Below are positions 45,207-62,358 of a stretch of DNA of 64,000 bases, in pieces (the first letter of the stretch is position 1; each line of letters opens with the position of its first letter). Origin of the DNA: Ulvibacter antarcticus (GTDB lineage Bacteria; Bacteroidota; Bacteroidia; Flavobacteriales; Flavobacteriaceae); NCBI RefSeq assembly GCF_003688405.1, contig NZ_REFC01000014.1:1-64000 (forward strand), in the 5' to 3' direction. A program made the position numbers and the translations under genes. Below the pieces are notes generated by a model. The model ran no database searches. It was not told where the DNA came from and saw only the letters and a list, made by a program, of their open reading frames with translations.

Positions 45207-45240
45207 AGCAACTTCCATTTTAATGGAAGAAAAGAGCTTT

Positions 45241-45290
45241 CCCCTCCTTTTTTTAAGGAGGGGTGCCGAAGGCGGGGTGGTTAAAAATCA
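45241..45290 (+). repeat. Family 3 repeat (CCCCTCC/GGAGGGG ... GAAGGCGGGGTGG), copy 1
   Basis: CCCCTCCTT and AAGGAGGGG form a stem, then GTGCCGAAGGCGGGGTGG and GTTAAAAATCACGAA. Shares the module GAAGGCGGGGTGGT with copy 2 at 45384 and, inverted, copy 3 at 45818. Confidence 0.85.
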
Positions 45291-45383
45291 CGAAATGAAA
45301 TCTAATTCTCTTTTTTCTATCCAGTTCGAGTAGAATTTTAAATTACAATTATTTAAAGGGTAATACCGTTTCACAAATGATTT

Positions 45384-45430
45384 CCCCCTCCTAAACTAGG
45401 AGAATCTCGTCTGAGAAGGCGGGGTGGTCA
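45384..45430 (+). repeat. Family 3 repeat, copy 2, abutting the DUF559 gene's 3' end
   Basis: CCCCTCCTAAACTAGGAG, a variable segment, then GAAGGCGGGGTGGTC. The stop codon of the minus-strand DUF559 gene (45428-45430) falls in the last bases of the repeat. Confidence 0.85.
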
Positions 45431-45799
45431 AGAATCACTATCTGAAAACTCAAACTTTATTCTTTCTAAAACTAAATCAATAGAGTTTTTCACTTCTTCA
45501 TTTTGAAAACGTAGTACCGTATGATTTAGCGACTCTAAGTAAGTAGTACGTTTAAAATCATAATCTTGATTCACGCTATTATTATGAACTTCTCCATCCA
45601 ATTCTATGATAAGGCGCTCTGTCGGACAATAAAAATCAACAATATAATTTCCGATACTTTGTTGTCTTCGGAATTTTTTTCCTTCCAATTGAGATTTTTG
45701 CAAGGCTTTCCATAATTTCTTTTCAGAAGTAGTTGCGTTGTTGCGTAATTCTTTTCTAAAAGATTCGAGCTGTTTCCGATTATGGATCTTCTTTTTCAT
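45428..45799 (-). CDS. DUF559 domain protein (Vsr/PD-(D/E)XK-type nuclease fold), flanked by inverted repeats
   Basis: 123 residues. RNNATTSEKKLWKALQKSQLEGKKFRRQQSIGNYIVDFYCPTERLIIELDGEVH is the DUF559 signature. The IVDF and ELDGxxH residues correspond to the PD-(D/E)XK active site of Vsr-like endonucleases. Family members are short, stand-alone and scattered in Bacteroidota genomes; no confirmed function. This one is bracketed by inverted copies of the family 3 repeat (45384 and 45818) and its stop codon lies within a repeat, which ties gene and repeat together. Mobile or repeat-processing role is inferred. Confidence 0.88.
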   Translation of the reverse strand: MKKKIHNRKQLESFRKELRNNATTSEKKLWKALQKSQLEGKKFRRQQSIGNYIVDFYCPTERLIIELDGEVHNNSVNQDYDFKRTTYLESLNHTVLRFQNEEVKNSIDLVLERIKFEFSDSDS

Positions 45800-45817
45800 G
45801 AGTGTTTTGTGCTTCTA

Positions 45818-45855
45818 CCACCCCGCCTTCGGCACCCCTCCTAAACTAGGAGGGG
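45818..45855 (-). repeat. Family 3 repeat, copy 3 (inverted) upstream of the DUF559 start
   Basis: CCACCCCGCCTTCGGCACCCCTCCTAAACTAGGAGGGG is the reverse complement arrangement of copies 1 and 2; the segment CCTCCTAAACTAGGAG is shared exactly with copy 2. It lies 19 bp before the DUF559 ATG. Confidence 0.88.
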
Positions 45856-45874
45856 AAAGCTAATTATTTAAATT

Positions 45875-46225: not shown

Positions 46226-48037
46226 TTATTTAATTAGCGTGTTTTGTTTTTCAATCAACAACAGTCCGTTATCTATTAAATGAGCCACTTTAGGCCTACG
46301 AATCTTTAAATCCATCAAATATTTTAAAACTTCATCGGCCTTAGTTAACTCATAAATCTCCAAAGGCAAAAGCCAATCGTTAGTGTGATTCCTTTCAACC
46401 AACTCATAAATCTCAAGAAGCGCATTCCTCTCCCTCTGGGAGAGGTTAGGTGAGGGTTCTTCCCGAATCTCCCTCACTTTTCGATACATCTCATTCAGCT
46501 CATTTTCTTTTTCTGAAGGCTTTGTCCGTAATGTCTTAGAACTACTTACATGATTCACGAGATCGAATGAAAGATAATCGGCTGCTCCAGCAAATGCCGA
46601 AACAATTTCTTTTCCTACGGCCATATCAAAATCACCCATTTCCGGCGTGAACAAAACTTCATCCTTATAGGTCACGGTACAATTCGTAAACTGAATTAGC
46701 ATCAGTTCTCCTCTAAGATTCCTCATTCCTGTAACGTTCAATCCTTTTACAGTAATGCCACTTTCAAATTCAAAACCAATTGACTTTCCATCGTAAAAAT
46801 CGTAGGCTTGCAGGTCTCTCGGACCCATATTTTCAATTGCTAGATTTATACCTTTCAGTTTGCCCAAAGGCGACCGGAATCCATTTTGATGACGGCTTAC
46901 TCCATGACCTATAACTTCCTTTTCTCTATAAGAAAGTGCTGTTTCCCCTTCAGTTTCGAAATAAACAACTTCGTTGTCCTCATTTTGTATCATTCGTTTA
47001 AAATGCCCACTAATCTGAAGTCCGGTACTTAATTCAATTGTTCCTAACTGCTTAGATTGTATCAATTTTTTTAATCCGCGCCATCCACCTTTTCGCACTG
47101 CCATTGTATTGGCGAATTCTTCAAGCACCTCTTGTAAGTAGGCGAAATCTGGAGTTACATAAAGTTGAGGCTGAGGTTTTGTAATATCAAAGTCCTGATA
47201 AGCCGCATTGATAGAATATGCTATTTTTTTAACCTCCGGTTTCATGCACCAGGTACTTTCGCCAATTGAAGAAAGTAGTCCTGCGCCATAGATTTTCGGT
47301 TCTTTTACTGTACCTACCATTCCATATTCTACAGTCCACCAATGTAAATTTCTAATTAAAGATATTTCAGAAGCTTCTGTTTTTTTGTTCTGAAGATCAG
47401 TGACACGATTTTCTGCATCTTCTATACGTTTTAAATATTCTTTCAGTGAATCAGATAATTTCCCCTCTCCCTCTGGGAGGGGGCTAGGGGGAGGGCTCTC
47501 CTTCAAAATAGAAAGTTCCCGAACAGCCTCATACATCTCAATATCGTGTGCACTTGAAATTGCCTTGGCACCCACTTCTCCGAAACGTCTCAAATATTCA
47601 GCATAATCTGGACTGGCGATGATGGGTGCGTGTCCTGCGCCTTCATGAATGATATCCGGTGCCGGCGTGTATTCAATATTTTCAAGTTGTCTAATATCGC
47701 TCGCAATCACCAAAACTTTATACGCCTGAAACTCCATAAAAGCATTAGGCGGTATAAATCCGTCAACTGCAACCGCTGCCCAACCAATTTCTTTCAAGAT
47801 TCGGTTCATGCCATACATCGACGGAATTTCATCGATGGAAATCCCGGTTTTCCGAAGCCCCTCCATATAGCTTTCATGAGCAACCCGACTCAGGTAATCC
47901 ACATTTTTACGCATCACATAGCGCCAAACTGCCTGGTTTATCGGACTATATTGTTCGTAATTTTGCGGTTTTATGTACTGCTTTAAATGCGGAGGTAACC
48001 TGTCCAGTAATTCGTTGGTTACAATCTTGTCTTCCAT
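46226..48037 (-). CDS. Aromatic amino acid (phenylalanine-type) hydroxylase with in-frame repeat-encoded inserts
   Basis: 603 residues from ATG 48037. Catalytic domain with iron site HEGAGHAP (His131 and His136) and the downstream WTVEYGMVG pterin-dependent hydroxylase motif near 240; C-terminal extension of unknown role beyond the catalytic core. Uses tetrahydropterin and O2 to make tyrosine from phenylalanine. Two copies of the family 1 palindromic repeat are read in frame: 47461-47502 encodes PPPSPLPEGEG near residue 185 and 46427-46457 encodes PSPNLSQRER near 530. These inserts sit in hydrophilic loops away from the iron site. Promoter TATTTTTG at 48044-48051 gives a near-leaderless start. 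Confidence 0.9.
   Translation of the reverse strand: MEDKIVTNELLDRLPPHLKQYIKPQNYEQYSPINQAVWRYVMRKNVDYLSRVAHESYMEGLRKTGISIDEIPSMYGMNRILKEIGWAAVAVDGFIPPNAFMEFQAYKVLVIASDIRQLENIEYTPAPDIIHEGAGHAPIIASPDYAEYLRRFGEVGAKAISSAHDIEMYEAVRELSILKESPPPSPLPEGEGKLSDSLKEYLKRIEDAENRVTDLQNKKTEASEISLIRNLHWWTVEYGMVGTVKEPKIYGAGLLSSIGESTWCMKPEVKKIAYSINAAYQDFDITKPQPQLYVTPDFAYLQEVLEEFANTMAVRKGGWRGLKKLIQSKQLGTIELSTGLQISGHFKRMIQNEDNEVVYFETEGETALSYREKEVIGHGVSRHQNGFRSPLGKLKGINLAIENMGPRDLQAYDFYDGKSIGFEFESGITVKGLNVTGMRNLRGELMLIQFTNCTVTYKDEVLFTPEMGDFDMAVGKEIVSAFAGAADYLSFDLVNHVSSSKTLRTKPSEKENELNEMYRKVREIREEPSPNLSQRERNALLEIYELVERNHTNDWLLPLEIYELTKADEVLKYLMDLKIRRPKVAHLIDNGLLLIEKQNTLIK
46427..46457 (+). repeat. Family 1 palindromic repeat inside the hydroxylase gene (copy a)
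   Basis: CCTCTCCCTCTGGGAGAGG stem followed by TTAGGTGAGGG. On the minus strand it is translated as part of SPNLSQRERN. Confidence 0.88.
47461..47502 (+). repeat. Family 1 palindromic repeat inside the hydroxylase gene (copy b)
   Basis: CCCCTCTCCCTCTGGGAGG plus GGGCTAGGGGGAGGG. Translated on the minus strand as PPPSPLPEGEG. A 42-bp in-frame insertion without stop codons. Confidence 0.88.
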
Positions 48038-48043
48038 AGACTT

Positions 48044-48051
48044 CAAAAATA
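48044..48051 (-). promoter_or_regulatory. -7 element TATTTTTG just before the hydroxylase ATG
   Basis: Minus strand TATTTTTG ends 6 nt before ATG 48037, parallel to the arrangement at the S24 regulator, predicting a leaderless or very short-leader mRNA. Confidence 0.45.
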
Positions 48052-49981: not shown

Positions 49982-50025
49982 TTCTCTCCCTCTGGGAGAG
50001 ATGTCCGAATGACTGAGAGGGCTTT
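49982..50025 (+). repeat. Family 1 palindromic repeat between paaE and paaA
   Basis: TTCTCTCCCTCTGGGAGAG stem, then ATGTCCGAATGACTGAGAGGG. Same stem core as other family 1 copies. Confidence 0.85.
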
Positions 50026-51027: not shown

Positions 51028-51062
51028 CCTTCTCCCTCTGGGAGAGGGACAGAGGGTGAGGG
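51028..51062 (+). repeat. Family 1 palindromic repeat between paaA and paaB
   Basis: CTTCTCCCTCTGGGAGAGGG followed by ACAGAGGGTGAGGG. It lengthens the open frame upstream of paaB without being part of the protein. Confidence 0.88.
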
Positions 51063-51072
51063 AATAATAATT

Positions 51073-51357
51073 ATGAAAAAAAACTGGCCACTTTGGGAAA
51101 TATTTGTTCGATCAAAAAACGGACTCGAACACCGTCACTTTGGAAGTCTACATGCAGCAGATGCTGATATGGCTATGGAAAATGCACGTGATGTTTATAC
51201 CCGCCGTAATGAAGGAGTAAGCATATGGGTAGTAGAAAGTAGCAATATCACTGCTTCAAACCCAGAACATAATGGTGAATTATTTGAACCTGCCCAGGAT
51301 AAAATTTACCGTCATCCTACATTCTATGACTTACCCGATGAGGTGAAGCATATGTAA
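51073..51357 (+). CDS. paaB: Phenylacetyl-CoA epoxidase subunit PaaB
   Basis: 94 residues from ATG 51073 (MKKNWPLWEIFVRSKNG). The open frame continues upstream through the family 1 repeat to 51019, but those codons (LLPSPSGRGTEGEG) are repeat-derived. RSKNGLEHRHFGSLHAADADMAMENARDVYTRRNEGVSIWVVES is the conserved PaaB body. PaaB bridges the PaaAC heterodimers. Size matches the family. Confidence 0.96.
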   Translation: MKKNWPLWEIFVRSKNGLEHRHFGSLHAADADMAMENARDVYTRRNEGVSIWVVESSNITASNPEHNGELFEPAQDKIYRHPTFYDLPDEVKHM

Positions 51358-51452: not shown

Positions 51453-52262
51453 ATGAACAGCACCAAAAATGATAATAATTCTCTCCCTATGGGAGAGATG
51501 TCTGGAGGACAGAGAGGAAATCTATACAATTACATCCTCGGCATCGCCGATAACTCGCTAATCCTTGCACAGCGATTAGGAGAACTTTGCGGTCATGGTC
51601 CGAATTTGGAAACAGATATTGCACTTACCAATATATCATTGGATTTGTTGGGACAAACGCGAAGCTATTATCAATATGCAGCAAAAGTTGAAGGAGCTGG
51701 TAAATCGGAAGATGATATTGCCTTTTTACGTTTAGAAAGGGAATACAAAAATATATTGTTGGTAGAGCAACCTAACACCCACTTTGGTTATGTTATGGCG
51801 AGACAATTTTTGTTTGATATTTATCATTTAATGATGATGAAAGAGCTTCAGAAAAGCAAGGATGAAACGCTACGTGCTGTTGCTAACAAAGGAATTAAAG
51901 AAGTGAGTTACCATAAACGTTTCTCTTCAGACTGGATAAAAAGACTTGGAGATGGTACAGAAGAAAGTCACGGAAAAATGCAGGAAGCCATTGATGATCT
52001 TTGGCGATATACGAACGAGATGTTTCAGATGACAGCCGCAGATACAGAAATGGCTGAAGCTGGTATTGGAGTGGATGTTTCAAAATTCAAAGAAGCATAT
52101 TATAAAGAAGTTTCCGAAGTGCTAAAAGAAGCGACACTAACCGTTCCCGAAAGTAAGTATTTTGCTAAAGGAGGAAAAGAAGGAATTCACACAGAACATA
52201 TGGGATATATATTGGCCGATTTGCAATATATGCAGAAGACCTTCCCAAATATGACGTGGTAA
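51453..52262 (+). CDS. paaC: Phenylacetyl-CoA epoxidase structural subunit PaaC with repeat-derived N-terminus
   Basis: 269 residues from ATG 51453. The PaaC core starts at about residue 25 (LYNYILGIADNSLILAQRLGELCGHGPNLETDIALTNISLDLLGQTR) and continues to the C-terminal GYILADLQYMQKTFPNMTW. PaaC lacks full di-iron ligands and stabilises PaaA. The first ~24 residues, including SLPMGEMSGGQRG, are translated from a family 1 repeat at 51480-51517. No other in-frame ATG precedes the core within the repeat-free sequence, so the extension is probably made unless a non-ATG start is used. Confidence 0.95.
   Translation: MNSTKNDNNSLPMGEMSGGQRGNLYNYILGIADNSLILAQRLGELCGHGPNLETDIALTNISLDLLGQTRSYYQYAAKVEGAGKSEDDIAFLRLEREYKNILLVEQPNTHFGYVMARQFLFDIYHLMMMKELQKSKDETLRAVANKGIKEVSYHKRFSSDWIKRLGDGTEESHGKMQEAIDDLWRYTNEMFQMTAADTEMAEAGIGVDVSKFKEAYYKEVSEVLKEATLTVPESKYFAKGGKEGIHTEHMGYILADLQYMQKTFPNMTW
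51480..51517 (+). repeat. Family 1 palindromic repeat inside the 5' end of paaC
   Basis: TCTCTCCCTATGGGAGAG stem then ATGTCTGGAGGACAGAGAGG. Read in frame as SLPMGEMSGGQRG. Confidence 0.88.
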
Positions 52263-53743: not shown

Positions 53744-53780
53744 CTTCTCCCTCTCCTAGGGGAGAGGGTTGAGGTGAGGG
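53744..53780 (+). repeat. Family 1 palindromic repeat between paaG and paaH
   Basis: CTTCTCCCTCTCCTAGGGGAGAGGG then TTGAGGTGAGGG; it matches the other family 1 copies in layout and falls 8 bp before the paaH ATG. Confidence 0.88.
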
Positions 53781-62076: not shown

Positions 62077-62358
62077 ATGAAATGGAGCGTATGAATAATT
62101 ACAAACAAACCAGATGGAGTGCTGTACATCGGATCGACCAAAGATTTAAGAAGAAGAATAGATCAACATAAAAGGAAAGTCCATCCTTCAGCTTTTTCAG
62201 CTCGTTATAATTTAGACAAATTAGTGTTTTTTGAAAATTTTGAAACTAAAGAAGAATCATTAAAAAGAGAAGCTCAATTAAAGAAATGGAATCGTGATTG
62301 GAAAATTCGATTAATTGAAGAAATAAACCCAGAATGGAATGAATTACATTCAATATAA
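62077..62358 (+). pseudogene. GIY-YIG nuclease-family gene broken by an in-frame TGA
   Basis: Starting at ATG 62077, MKWSV is followed by TGA (62092-62094) and then in the same frame IITNKPDGVLYIGSTKDLRRRIDQHKRKV to a stop at 62358. In intact relatives this place reads VYIITNKPDGVLYIG, so the stop replaces the Tyr of the GIY half of the active site. The rest, YIGS, Arg in RRRI and the C-terminal KKWNRDWK block, is intact. Without readthrough only a fragment from GTG 62119 could be made, lacking the GIY strand. Flanked by family 2 repeats at 61968 and 62406/62442. Confidence 0.9.

Follow-up and report, generated by a model that had tools for sequence, protein, structure and literature searches.

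Our results tie a family of small nuclease-like proteins, DUF559, to a known class of bacterial DNA repeats. We consider it probable, at roughly 60%, that DUF559 is the dedicated nuclease of the intrastrand-triplex repeats of the TM/BoxC type, and that the gene and its repeats together make up a mobile system. The association between DUF559 and the repeats is evident in the sequences we compared, and cleavage and mobilisation are inferred activities. The repeat itself was already known, and the new part is its tie to DUF559, a link that we did not find in the open-access literature. An earlier note on this DNA had suggested a self-propagating unit that relies on a nuclease-type protein instead of a transposase, and our analysis supports this core idea, with mobilisation as its conjectural part.

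The window, i.e. the whole stretch of 64,000 nucleotides from Ulvibacter antarcticus that was analysed, contains an inserted block (45207..45874) between the stop codons of convergent DUF4230 and rhodanese genes. The block carries a gene for a protein of 123 amino acids on the minus strand (45428..45799) that matches PF04480 (DUF559) with 126 bits and an E value of 6.6e-37 in a Pfam profile search; the other Pfam match of its product, MTES_1575, scores below the family cut-off. No other ORF of at least 60 amino acids was found in the block. The gene does lie beside what the earlier note called family 3 repeats, with a complete unit on either side. Copy 1 (45241..45282, plus strand) reads CCCCTCCTT-TTTTT-AAGGAGGGG, followed by the linker TGCCGAAGGC and the mirror tail GGGGTGGTT; copy 3 (45816..45855, minus strand) reads CCCCTCCTA-GTT-TAGGAGGGG, followed by the same linker and by the tail GGGGTGGTA, which faces the gene. 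Copy 2 (45384..45429, plus strand), delineated by eye, has the hairpin CCTCCTAAACTAGGAG and an intact tail GGCGGGGTGG, but its linker is altered and its G-rich arm truncated; it is thus degenerate, which leaves copies 1 and 3 as the complete units, and the strict unit scan of the window did not pick it up. Copies 2 and 3 do have CCTCCTAAACTAGGAG and GAAGGCGGGGTGG in common, as previously noted. The proposed inversion of these two copies around the gene holds for copies 1 and 3, whose 29-nt arms are 97% complementary, and for copy 2 only in degenerate form. Similarly, the stop codon of the gene (TCA on the plus strand, 45428-45430) was thought to lie inside a repeat; it adjoins GGCGGGGTGG of copy 2, and therefore sits at the repeat's edge.

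With at most one mismatch, GGCGGGGTGG occurs six times in the window against 0.64 expected, a number reached by none of 100 shuffles, and the exact 24-mer GGAGGGGTGCCGAAGGCGGGGTGG is found five times in the 3.84-Mb genome, twice at the window's DUF559 gene, with zero occurrences in the controls. Four more mirror-tailed units, some of them weak, were seen in the window at 49983-50021, 51033-51059, 51480-51517 and 53746-53780. Elsewhere in the window, 1408-2974 is a tandem repeat with a period of mostly 123 nt that encodes, by eye, a protein repeat of the DCDGDGV type.

The units follow one order: a C-rich arm, a short loop, a G-rich arm, a linker, and a tail that mirrors the G-rich arm (AAGGAGGGG then GGGGTGGTT in the window). 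Among the strand-specific hairpins with an asymmetric arm at 64 DUF559 loci of the family, 112 of 282 had a perfect mirror tail and 29 a tail in direct order, the mirror controls giving 16.1 +/- 3.3 when arms were shuffled and 4.2 +/- 2.0 when tails were shuffled. When we compared the two orders in hairpins with a perfect tail in either, leaving out symmetric arms (16 in the family set and 42 in the set from many phyla), mirror beat direct by 68 to 2 with 3 ties in the family, and by 68 to 7 with 10 ties in the second set. Both contests rule out our first idea, a direct-order tail that would form a second hairpin with the pyrimidine arm. A cruder scan of many phyla gave direct tails at 59 of 80 loci and mirror tails at 66 of 80, nearly equal counts because many arms are close to palindromic, and it was not used as evidence of the mirror order. 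The tail letter opposite an A of the arm was A in 126 cases, T in 149 and C in 7, which are the letters of an antiparallel purine triplex (A.AT, T.AT). Read in this way, each unit encodes a pyrimidine arm, a purine arm and a mirror purine tail, so that a single DNA strand could fold as a Y.R.R triplex hairpin. The order and the triplets found (pyrimidine arm, complementary purine arm, 3' mirror tail; G.GC, A.AT or T.AT) are those that define the class II intrastrand triplex motif, and on the evidence of its letters the window repeat is such a motif (TM/BoxC). The linker was 3 nt long in 53 of the 112 mirror-tailed units of the family survey, within the loop limit of 1-6 nt with which the ITxF database was searched for this motif, whereas the 10-nt hairpin linker of the window units exceeds it. 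Long linkers, including TGCCGAAGGC, are mostly small hairpins by eye, and the hairpin of copy 1 with its linker hairpin had a single-stranded DNA fold z-score of -3.14 in a folding program that has no triplex model. The sequence GGCGGGGTGG is the form that the unit takes in the window's own family; the trait shared among units is the mirror-tailed triplex design.

The motif (TM, BoxC or PIT; class II of the ITxF) is described by Holder et al. 2015 (PMC4666352), whose relevant passages report 23 copies in E. coli MG1655, folding of the E. coli motif as a triplex in vitro, and no stable triplex in vivo by DMS footprinting. One might suppose that the G-rich parts act as G-quadruplexes or as RNA hairpins, and not as triplexes, and the two G-runs in the arm with two in the tail would indeed allow a two-tetrad quadruplex in many units. 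We find this very improbable. The tail mirrors the arm and has A or T, hardly ever C, at A positions, and some families have G-runs of only two (e.g. AAGGAGGAG / GAGGTGGTT in L066); these traits fit the purine triplex code and are not demanded by a quadruplex. As for RNA hairpins, the same source states that RNA does not form purine-motif triplexes.

The predicted model of the window protein (pLDDT 90.2) matches a Neisseria protein (3hrl) with Z 15.8, a resemblance also found in sequence (E 1.5e-22), the homing endonuclease I-Bth0305I (3r3p) with Z 13.2 and an rmsd of 2.6 over 94 residues, and Vsr with Z 10.6; the score of a mitoribosomal protein is close to that of Vsr (Z 10.7). Residues E26, D55, E66, D68, H72 and D81 are invariant in alignments of 16 and 45 sequences. 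According to this model, the protein has the Vsr / I-Bth0305I fold. The strongest rival to our reading starts from this fold: DUF559 could be a nuclease of Vsr-type mismatch repair or of housekeeping, in which case the repeats next to it would regulate it, terminate its transcription or simply happen to lie there. In line with this, a DUF559 protein of Caulobacter, VsrA, induces the SOS response in a cytosine-methyltransferase mutant; the parts of that study on which we draw propose for it a role in very-short-patch repair (PMC12907096). We nevertheless hold this explanation to be unlikely, for it leaves the repeat association unexplained, and the E. coli motif lacks promoter and terminator activity, as cited in the text of Holder et al. 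(PMC4666352). Phages, which we considered as carriers, encode relatives of the window protein in 3 of 50,697 records, and PADLOC profiles gave only weak matches to it (best mREase_II, 24 bits).

The association extends well beyond the window. The genome has four DUF559 genes, and every one of them lies between copies of its own unit variant, the downstream unit of the gene fused to hemD being recognised by eye. From 120 genomes of the family we studied 64 loci, namely these four and, with 4-kb flanks, the first 60 of 64 strong outside matches; the remaining four matches (G037:C310, G112, G113 and G002) fell outside this set, and the LeuS stretches of G112, G113 and G002 were examined. The density of units was 2.43 per kb within 400 nt of the DUF559 domain, 0.32 per kb in the next 400 nt and 0.00-0.08 per kb beyond 0.8 kb. 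The earlier note expected DUF559 homologues to be flanked by the repeat often, and so they are: in the window's family, one or more strict units lay within 700 nt at 38 of the 49 standalone loci and at 12 of the 15 fused ones, and 66 of 80 loci from many phyla had a unit within 600 nt, these being the best 80 of 540 and hence not a random sample. Within 500 nt, a unit was found at 50 of 64 DUF559 loci, compared with 1 of 26 GIY-YIG loci (30 loci, less 4 with short flanks) and none of the 64 DUF559 loci with their letters reversed. Strict units were absent from 11 of 49 standalone, 3 of 15 fused and 14 of 80 many-phyla loci, and most of the 11 standalone loci show, by eye, a shorter-stem version. 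Seven loci (L083, L088, L089, L092, L097, L101 and L106) have no strict unit, carry by eye the short stem CCCTAAAGGG next to a GGGG tail and have partly conserved neighbours; their DUF559 genes are perhaps a domesticated or differently folded branch. The E. coli DUF559 gene, ycjD, has one unit about 170-200 nt on its 3' side, with one mismatched stem pair, and no unit was seen on its other side (both by eye).

The layout of gene and repeats varies. The order of repeat, gene and inverted repeat that the earlier note took as typical is that of the window, but not the rule, as among the 49 standalone genes of the family sample long direct repeats flank 31 and inverted repeats 13. Pairs of units often bracket standalone genes and produce these direct repeats, which are rare in mismatched (2 of 300) and shifted (2 of 118) controls. 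The tails of standalone genes face inward in 26 of 34 cases upstream and 25 of 31 downstream. Those of fused copies face outward upstream in 9 of the 11 loci with a unit, and are mixed downstream, 3 to 3, so that orientation is only partly consistent. A further proposal linked GIY-YIG genes to another repeat family, the ATTSC..GSAAT palindromes; we could not clearly support it, as a crude pattern was found at 5 of 26 GIY-YIG and 13 of 64 DUF559 loci. In the window, 62080-62307 is a GIY-YIG reading frame with an internal TGA, and the palindromes AATTCCTGCGCAGGCAGGAAT and their relatives lie at 51356, 52265 and 61967.

In the family examined, units are scattered through genomes mainly where a DUF559 gene is present, judging from pattern counts. 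One unit pattern matches 38 times in the genome to which the window belongs, at sites spread far from the gene, and not at all in a congener (G063) with no DUF559 match. Of the 40 genomes in which DUF559 has a strong match, 33 contained two or more units (median 8), as did 10 of the 76 without one (median 0; Fisher p 1.5e-13, in a comparison made without a species tree, the 120 genomes spanning 119 genera); the outcome raised at the outset, repeats that abound irrespective of the gene, was not seen. The 10 genomes are mostly at the level of the reversed-pattern control; an excess of at least 3 over control was found in 27 of 40 genomes with a strong match and in 1 of 76 without, and 7 of the 40 had fewer than two units by the single pattern used. 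Here, "strong" refers to the presence of a match and not to a check of residues (in G040 and G044, a single stop interrupts the sole strong match), and the 76 include 16 genomes whose only match is short, partial and no higher than 29 bits, 60 of the 120 passing the Pfam cut-off for DUF559. Four genomes where DUF559 is decayed or split (G002, G113, G110 and G013) were set apart from this comparison; in two of them, G113 and G002, the only DUF559 is a decayed copy in LeuS, and the pattern has zero matches.

This distribution bears on a second alternative, in which DUF559, as a host or selfish nuclease, clears or resolves triplexes by cutting them so that replication can go on, and the units stay close to it through an unrelated cause, as recombination hot spots that capture the gene. 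Structure-specific binding is common to this explanation and to ours, the motif is linked with local genome instability in the account of Holder et al. (PMC4666352), and part of another study describes hot spots of recombination in Legionella, segments that carry both a transposase and DUF559 (PMC12308824). If DUF559 cleared triplexes, however, genomes lacking it should be richer in units, and we found the opposite. Such a role also explains neither the insertion of gene plus units into empty sites nor the cognate variants of the repeat, and we think it quite unlikely. These variants are visible in the DUF559 tree, built from the 102 of 144 loci with a clear linker class and with roughly every second fork open. 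On it, the class of the linker, short or long, requires 8 changes against 19.4 in shuffles, with none of 500 as low, and the window gene falls in a supported group of 16 sequences, of which 15 have long linkers. DUF559 clades differ in the linker type of their units.

Comparison with congeners shows that the gene with its units, and also single units, are insertions relative to them. Empty alleles of the target site had been suggested as something to look for, and two congeners (G063 and G120) provide them: the DUF4230 and rhodanese genes abut without the block, and the regions of 7.5 kb and 7.2 kb hold no unit. G120 also lacks a unit that stands alone at C1:881108. Inside a phenylalanine-hydroxylase-like ORF (46226-48046, minus strand; named by eye), a mirror-tailed unit (47462..47493, plus strand) lies within an in-frame insertion of 16 residues that both congeners lack. 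The same scan returned a second unit in this ORF (46427..46456, plus strand), which we did not retain as an insertion, the congeners' proteins showing no net difference in length here. We found no target-site duplication or defined element end, and for the window block the comparison was limited by congeners that are too diverged. E. coli strains lacking ycjD were considered as further empty sites, but they carry other genes there (sapF then efflux genes in H33 and H29; in H37, a regulator gene with an incomplete stretch of an efflux gene upstream of fabI), so that none is a clean empty site.

Gene neighbourhoods also separate our reading from a housekeeping role. Where standalone genes with units were paired across genera at 65% identity or more, a flanking ORF within about 4 kb was common to both in 2 of 36 pairs; the surroundings of such close homologues mostly differ. 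A common flanking ORF is kept in 5 of 9 pairs of standalone genes without strict units, which speaks for a housekeeping role, although the pairs compared are not independent (L088 and L089, without units, are near-identical copies in one genome). The rarity of units in genomes without DUF559, their scatter far from the gene in the window's genome, their presence in frame inside proteins and their variation by nuclease clade all argue against repeats that are regulatory elements or mere neighbours.

DUF559 also occurs in frame within other proteins: inside LeuS (5 loci), MetH (2) and RecG (2), as the first part of HemD (4 loci, one of them in the window's genome) or of a dehydratase gene (1), or as the last part of HisD (1). 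These host ORFs were named by eye, and one representative of each was compared with NCBIfam, where LeuS, MetH, RecG and HisD pass the curated cut-off and HemD and the dehydratase fall below theirs. No intein family was among the matches listed at E <= 1e-10 for six fused ORFs (for one of them, the best 25 of 32). The five LeuS insertions and two decayed ones share one linker, just before VFTTRPD, which in other LeuS proteins holds short other repeats or is plain. In several genera (L145-L164), this linker is an in-frame hot spot for the palindromic repeats CATTCCG..CGGAATCT and GTCATTGCGAGCGAAG..AAGCAATCT. At L019 (G000:C1:295365-296414), a DUF559 gene of the window's genome lies between hemC and hemD; it forms one reading frame with HemD (349 aa), and repeat-encoded residues are found where the two meet. 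Another locus of this genome, L014 (G000:C1:131453-133433), has two outward-pointing unit pairs of the window type that bracket aminotransferase-like and sulfotransferase-like ORFs (names by eye); the outer neighbours of this block are 183 nt (G063) and 109 nt (G121) apart where it is absent. The two-gene block is possibly cargo moved by the repeats.

A nuclease of the Vsr fold is expected on its own to hydrolyse DNA and not to join it, so an activity of the host or of a partner must be assumed. The units and DUF559 could, for this reason, be passengers moved together by another transposase or integrase. We judge this improbable: the window block holds DUF559 only, the linker type follows the nuclease, and Holder et al. 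(PMC4666352) saw no remnants of a transposase or integrase at E. coli sites. In the scenario that we hold to be the most likely, the folded repeat is cut by DUF559 and spread with the help of host repair. The strand bearing the unit would be exposed during replication or repair, making the triplex hairpin available; the nuclease would recognise the folded unit and cut beside it; and host repair or replication restart would copy the unit, or a pair of units with the gene between them, into another break. Units without a gene may be mobilised in trans, as REPINs are by RAYTs, and the whole would work like a REPtron with an unrelated enzyme and a triplex signal.

One may go further, to a view that we rate at even odds. 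DUF559 and its units would then be a separate and widespread kind of selfish DNA, in which a one-domain Vsr-fold nuclease reads the three-stranded fold of its own flanking repeats. It would seed the triplex/BoxC repeats of E. coli and of many phyla, coevolve with its repeat variant, move gene-less copies and possibly bracketed host genes in trans, settle in frame in essential enzymes (LeuS, MetH, RecG) and later decay to a protein domain. If so, a non-B DNA structure would serve a mobile system as its address label, and selfish nucleases would have a way of turning into domains of essential enzymes. The tie between repeats and nuclease is directly testable in E. coli K-12, which has both ycjD and BoxC copies.

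How does this system relate to known ones? Like TM/BoxC, the window units have a pyrimidine arm, a purine arm and a 3' reverse-Hoogsteen tail, and the 3-nt linkers TTA and CCG of E. coli types A and B occur among DUF559 units, as do inverted pairs. Unlike TM/BoxC as described in the parts of Holder et al. (PMC4666352) that concern its contexts, where no dedicated gene is given and mobility genes were never found, the units studied here are tied to DUF559 and also form in-frame insertions in proteins; the words endonuclease, nuclease and DUF are absent from the main text of that paper. Many DUF559 units, including those of the window's clade, have a longer hairpin linker than the loops of 1-6 nt covered by that search. 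Like the REPtron, or REPIN-RAYT system, as portrayed in portions of Di Nocera 2013 (PMC3733652), the gene is bracketed by palindromic repeats, with many gene-less copies elsewhere, inverted repeat pairs and cognate repeat variants. Yet RAYTs are tyrosine (HUH) transposases and DUF559 is a predicted Vsr-fold nuclease, and the repeat is a mirror-tailed triplex unit unlike a REPIN, with the GTAG or CGTC tag absent from the two complete window units. The Vsr-like homing endonuclease I-Bth0305I shares the fold of the catalytic domain, and insertions of a selfish kind, in frame or next to genes, call homing to mind; in contrast, no intron or intein was recognised around the window gene, gene-less copies are many and dispersed, and the proposed recognition signal is a structured repeat instead of a long target sequence. 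Unlike an insertion sequence, the window block has no recognised transposase, DUF559 being its sole ORF of at least 60 amino acids. Rickettsia palindromic elements are short palindromic repeats placed in frame in protein genes; here, by contrast, what enters in frame includes the nuclease gene along with its repeats. The DUF559-unit system thus lacks the defining traits of RAYT/REPIN and of insertion sequences; of the traits of Vsr-like homing endonucleases, the fold is the one that it is seen to share.
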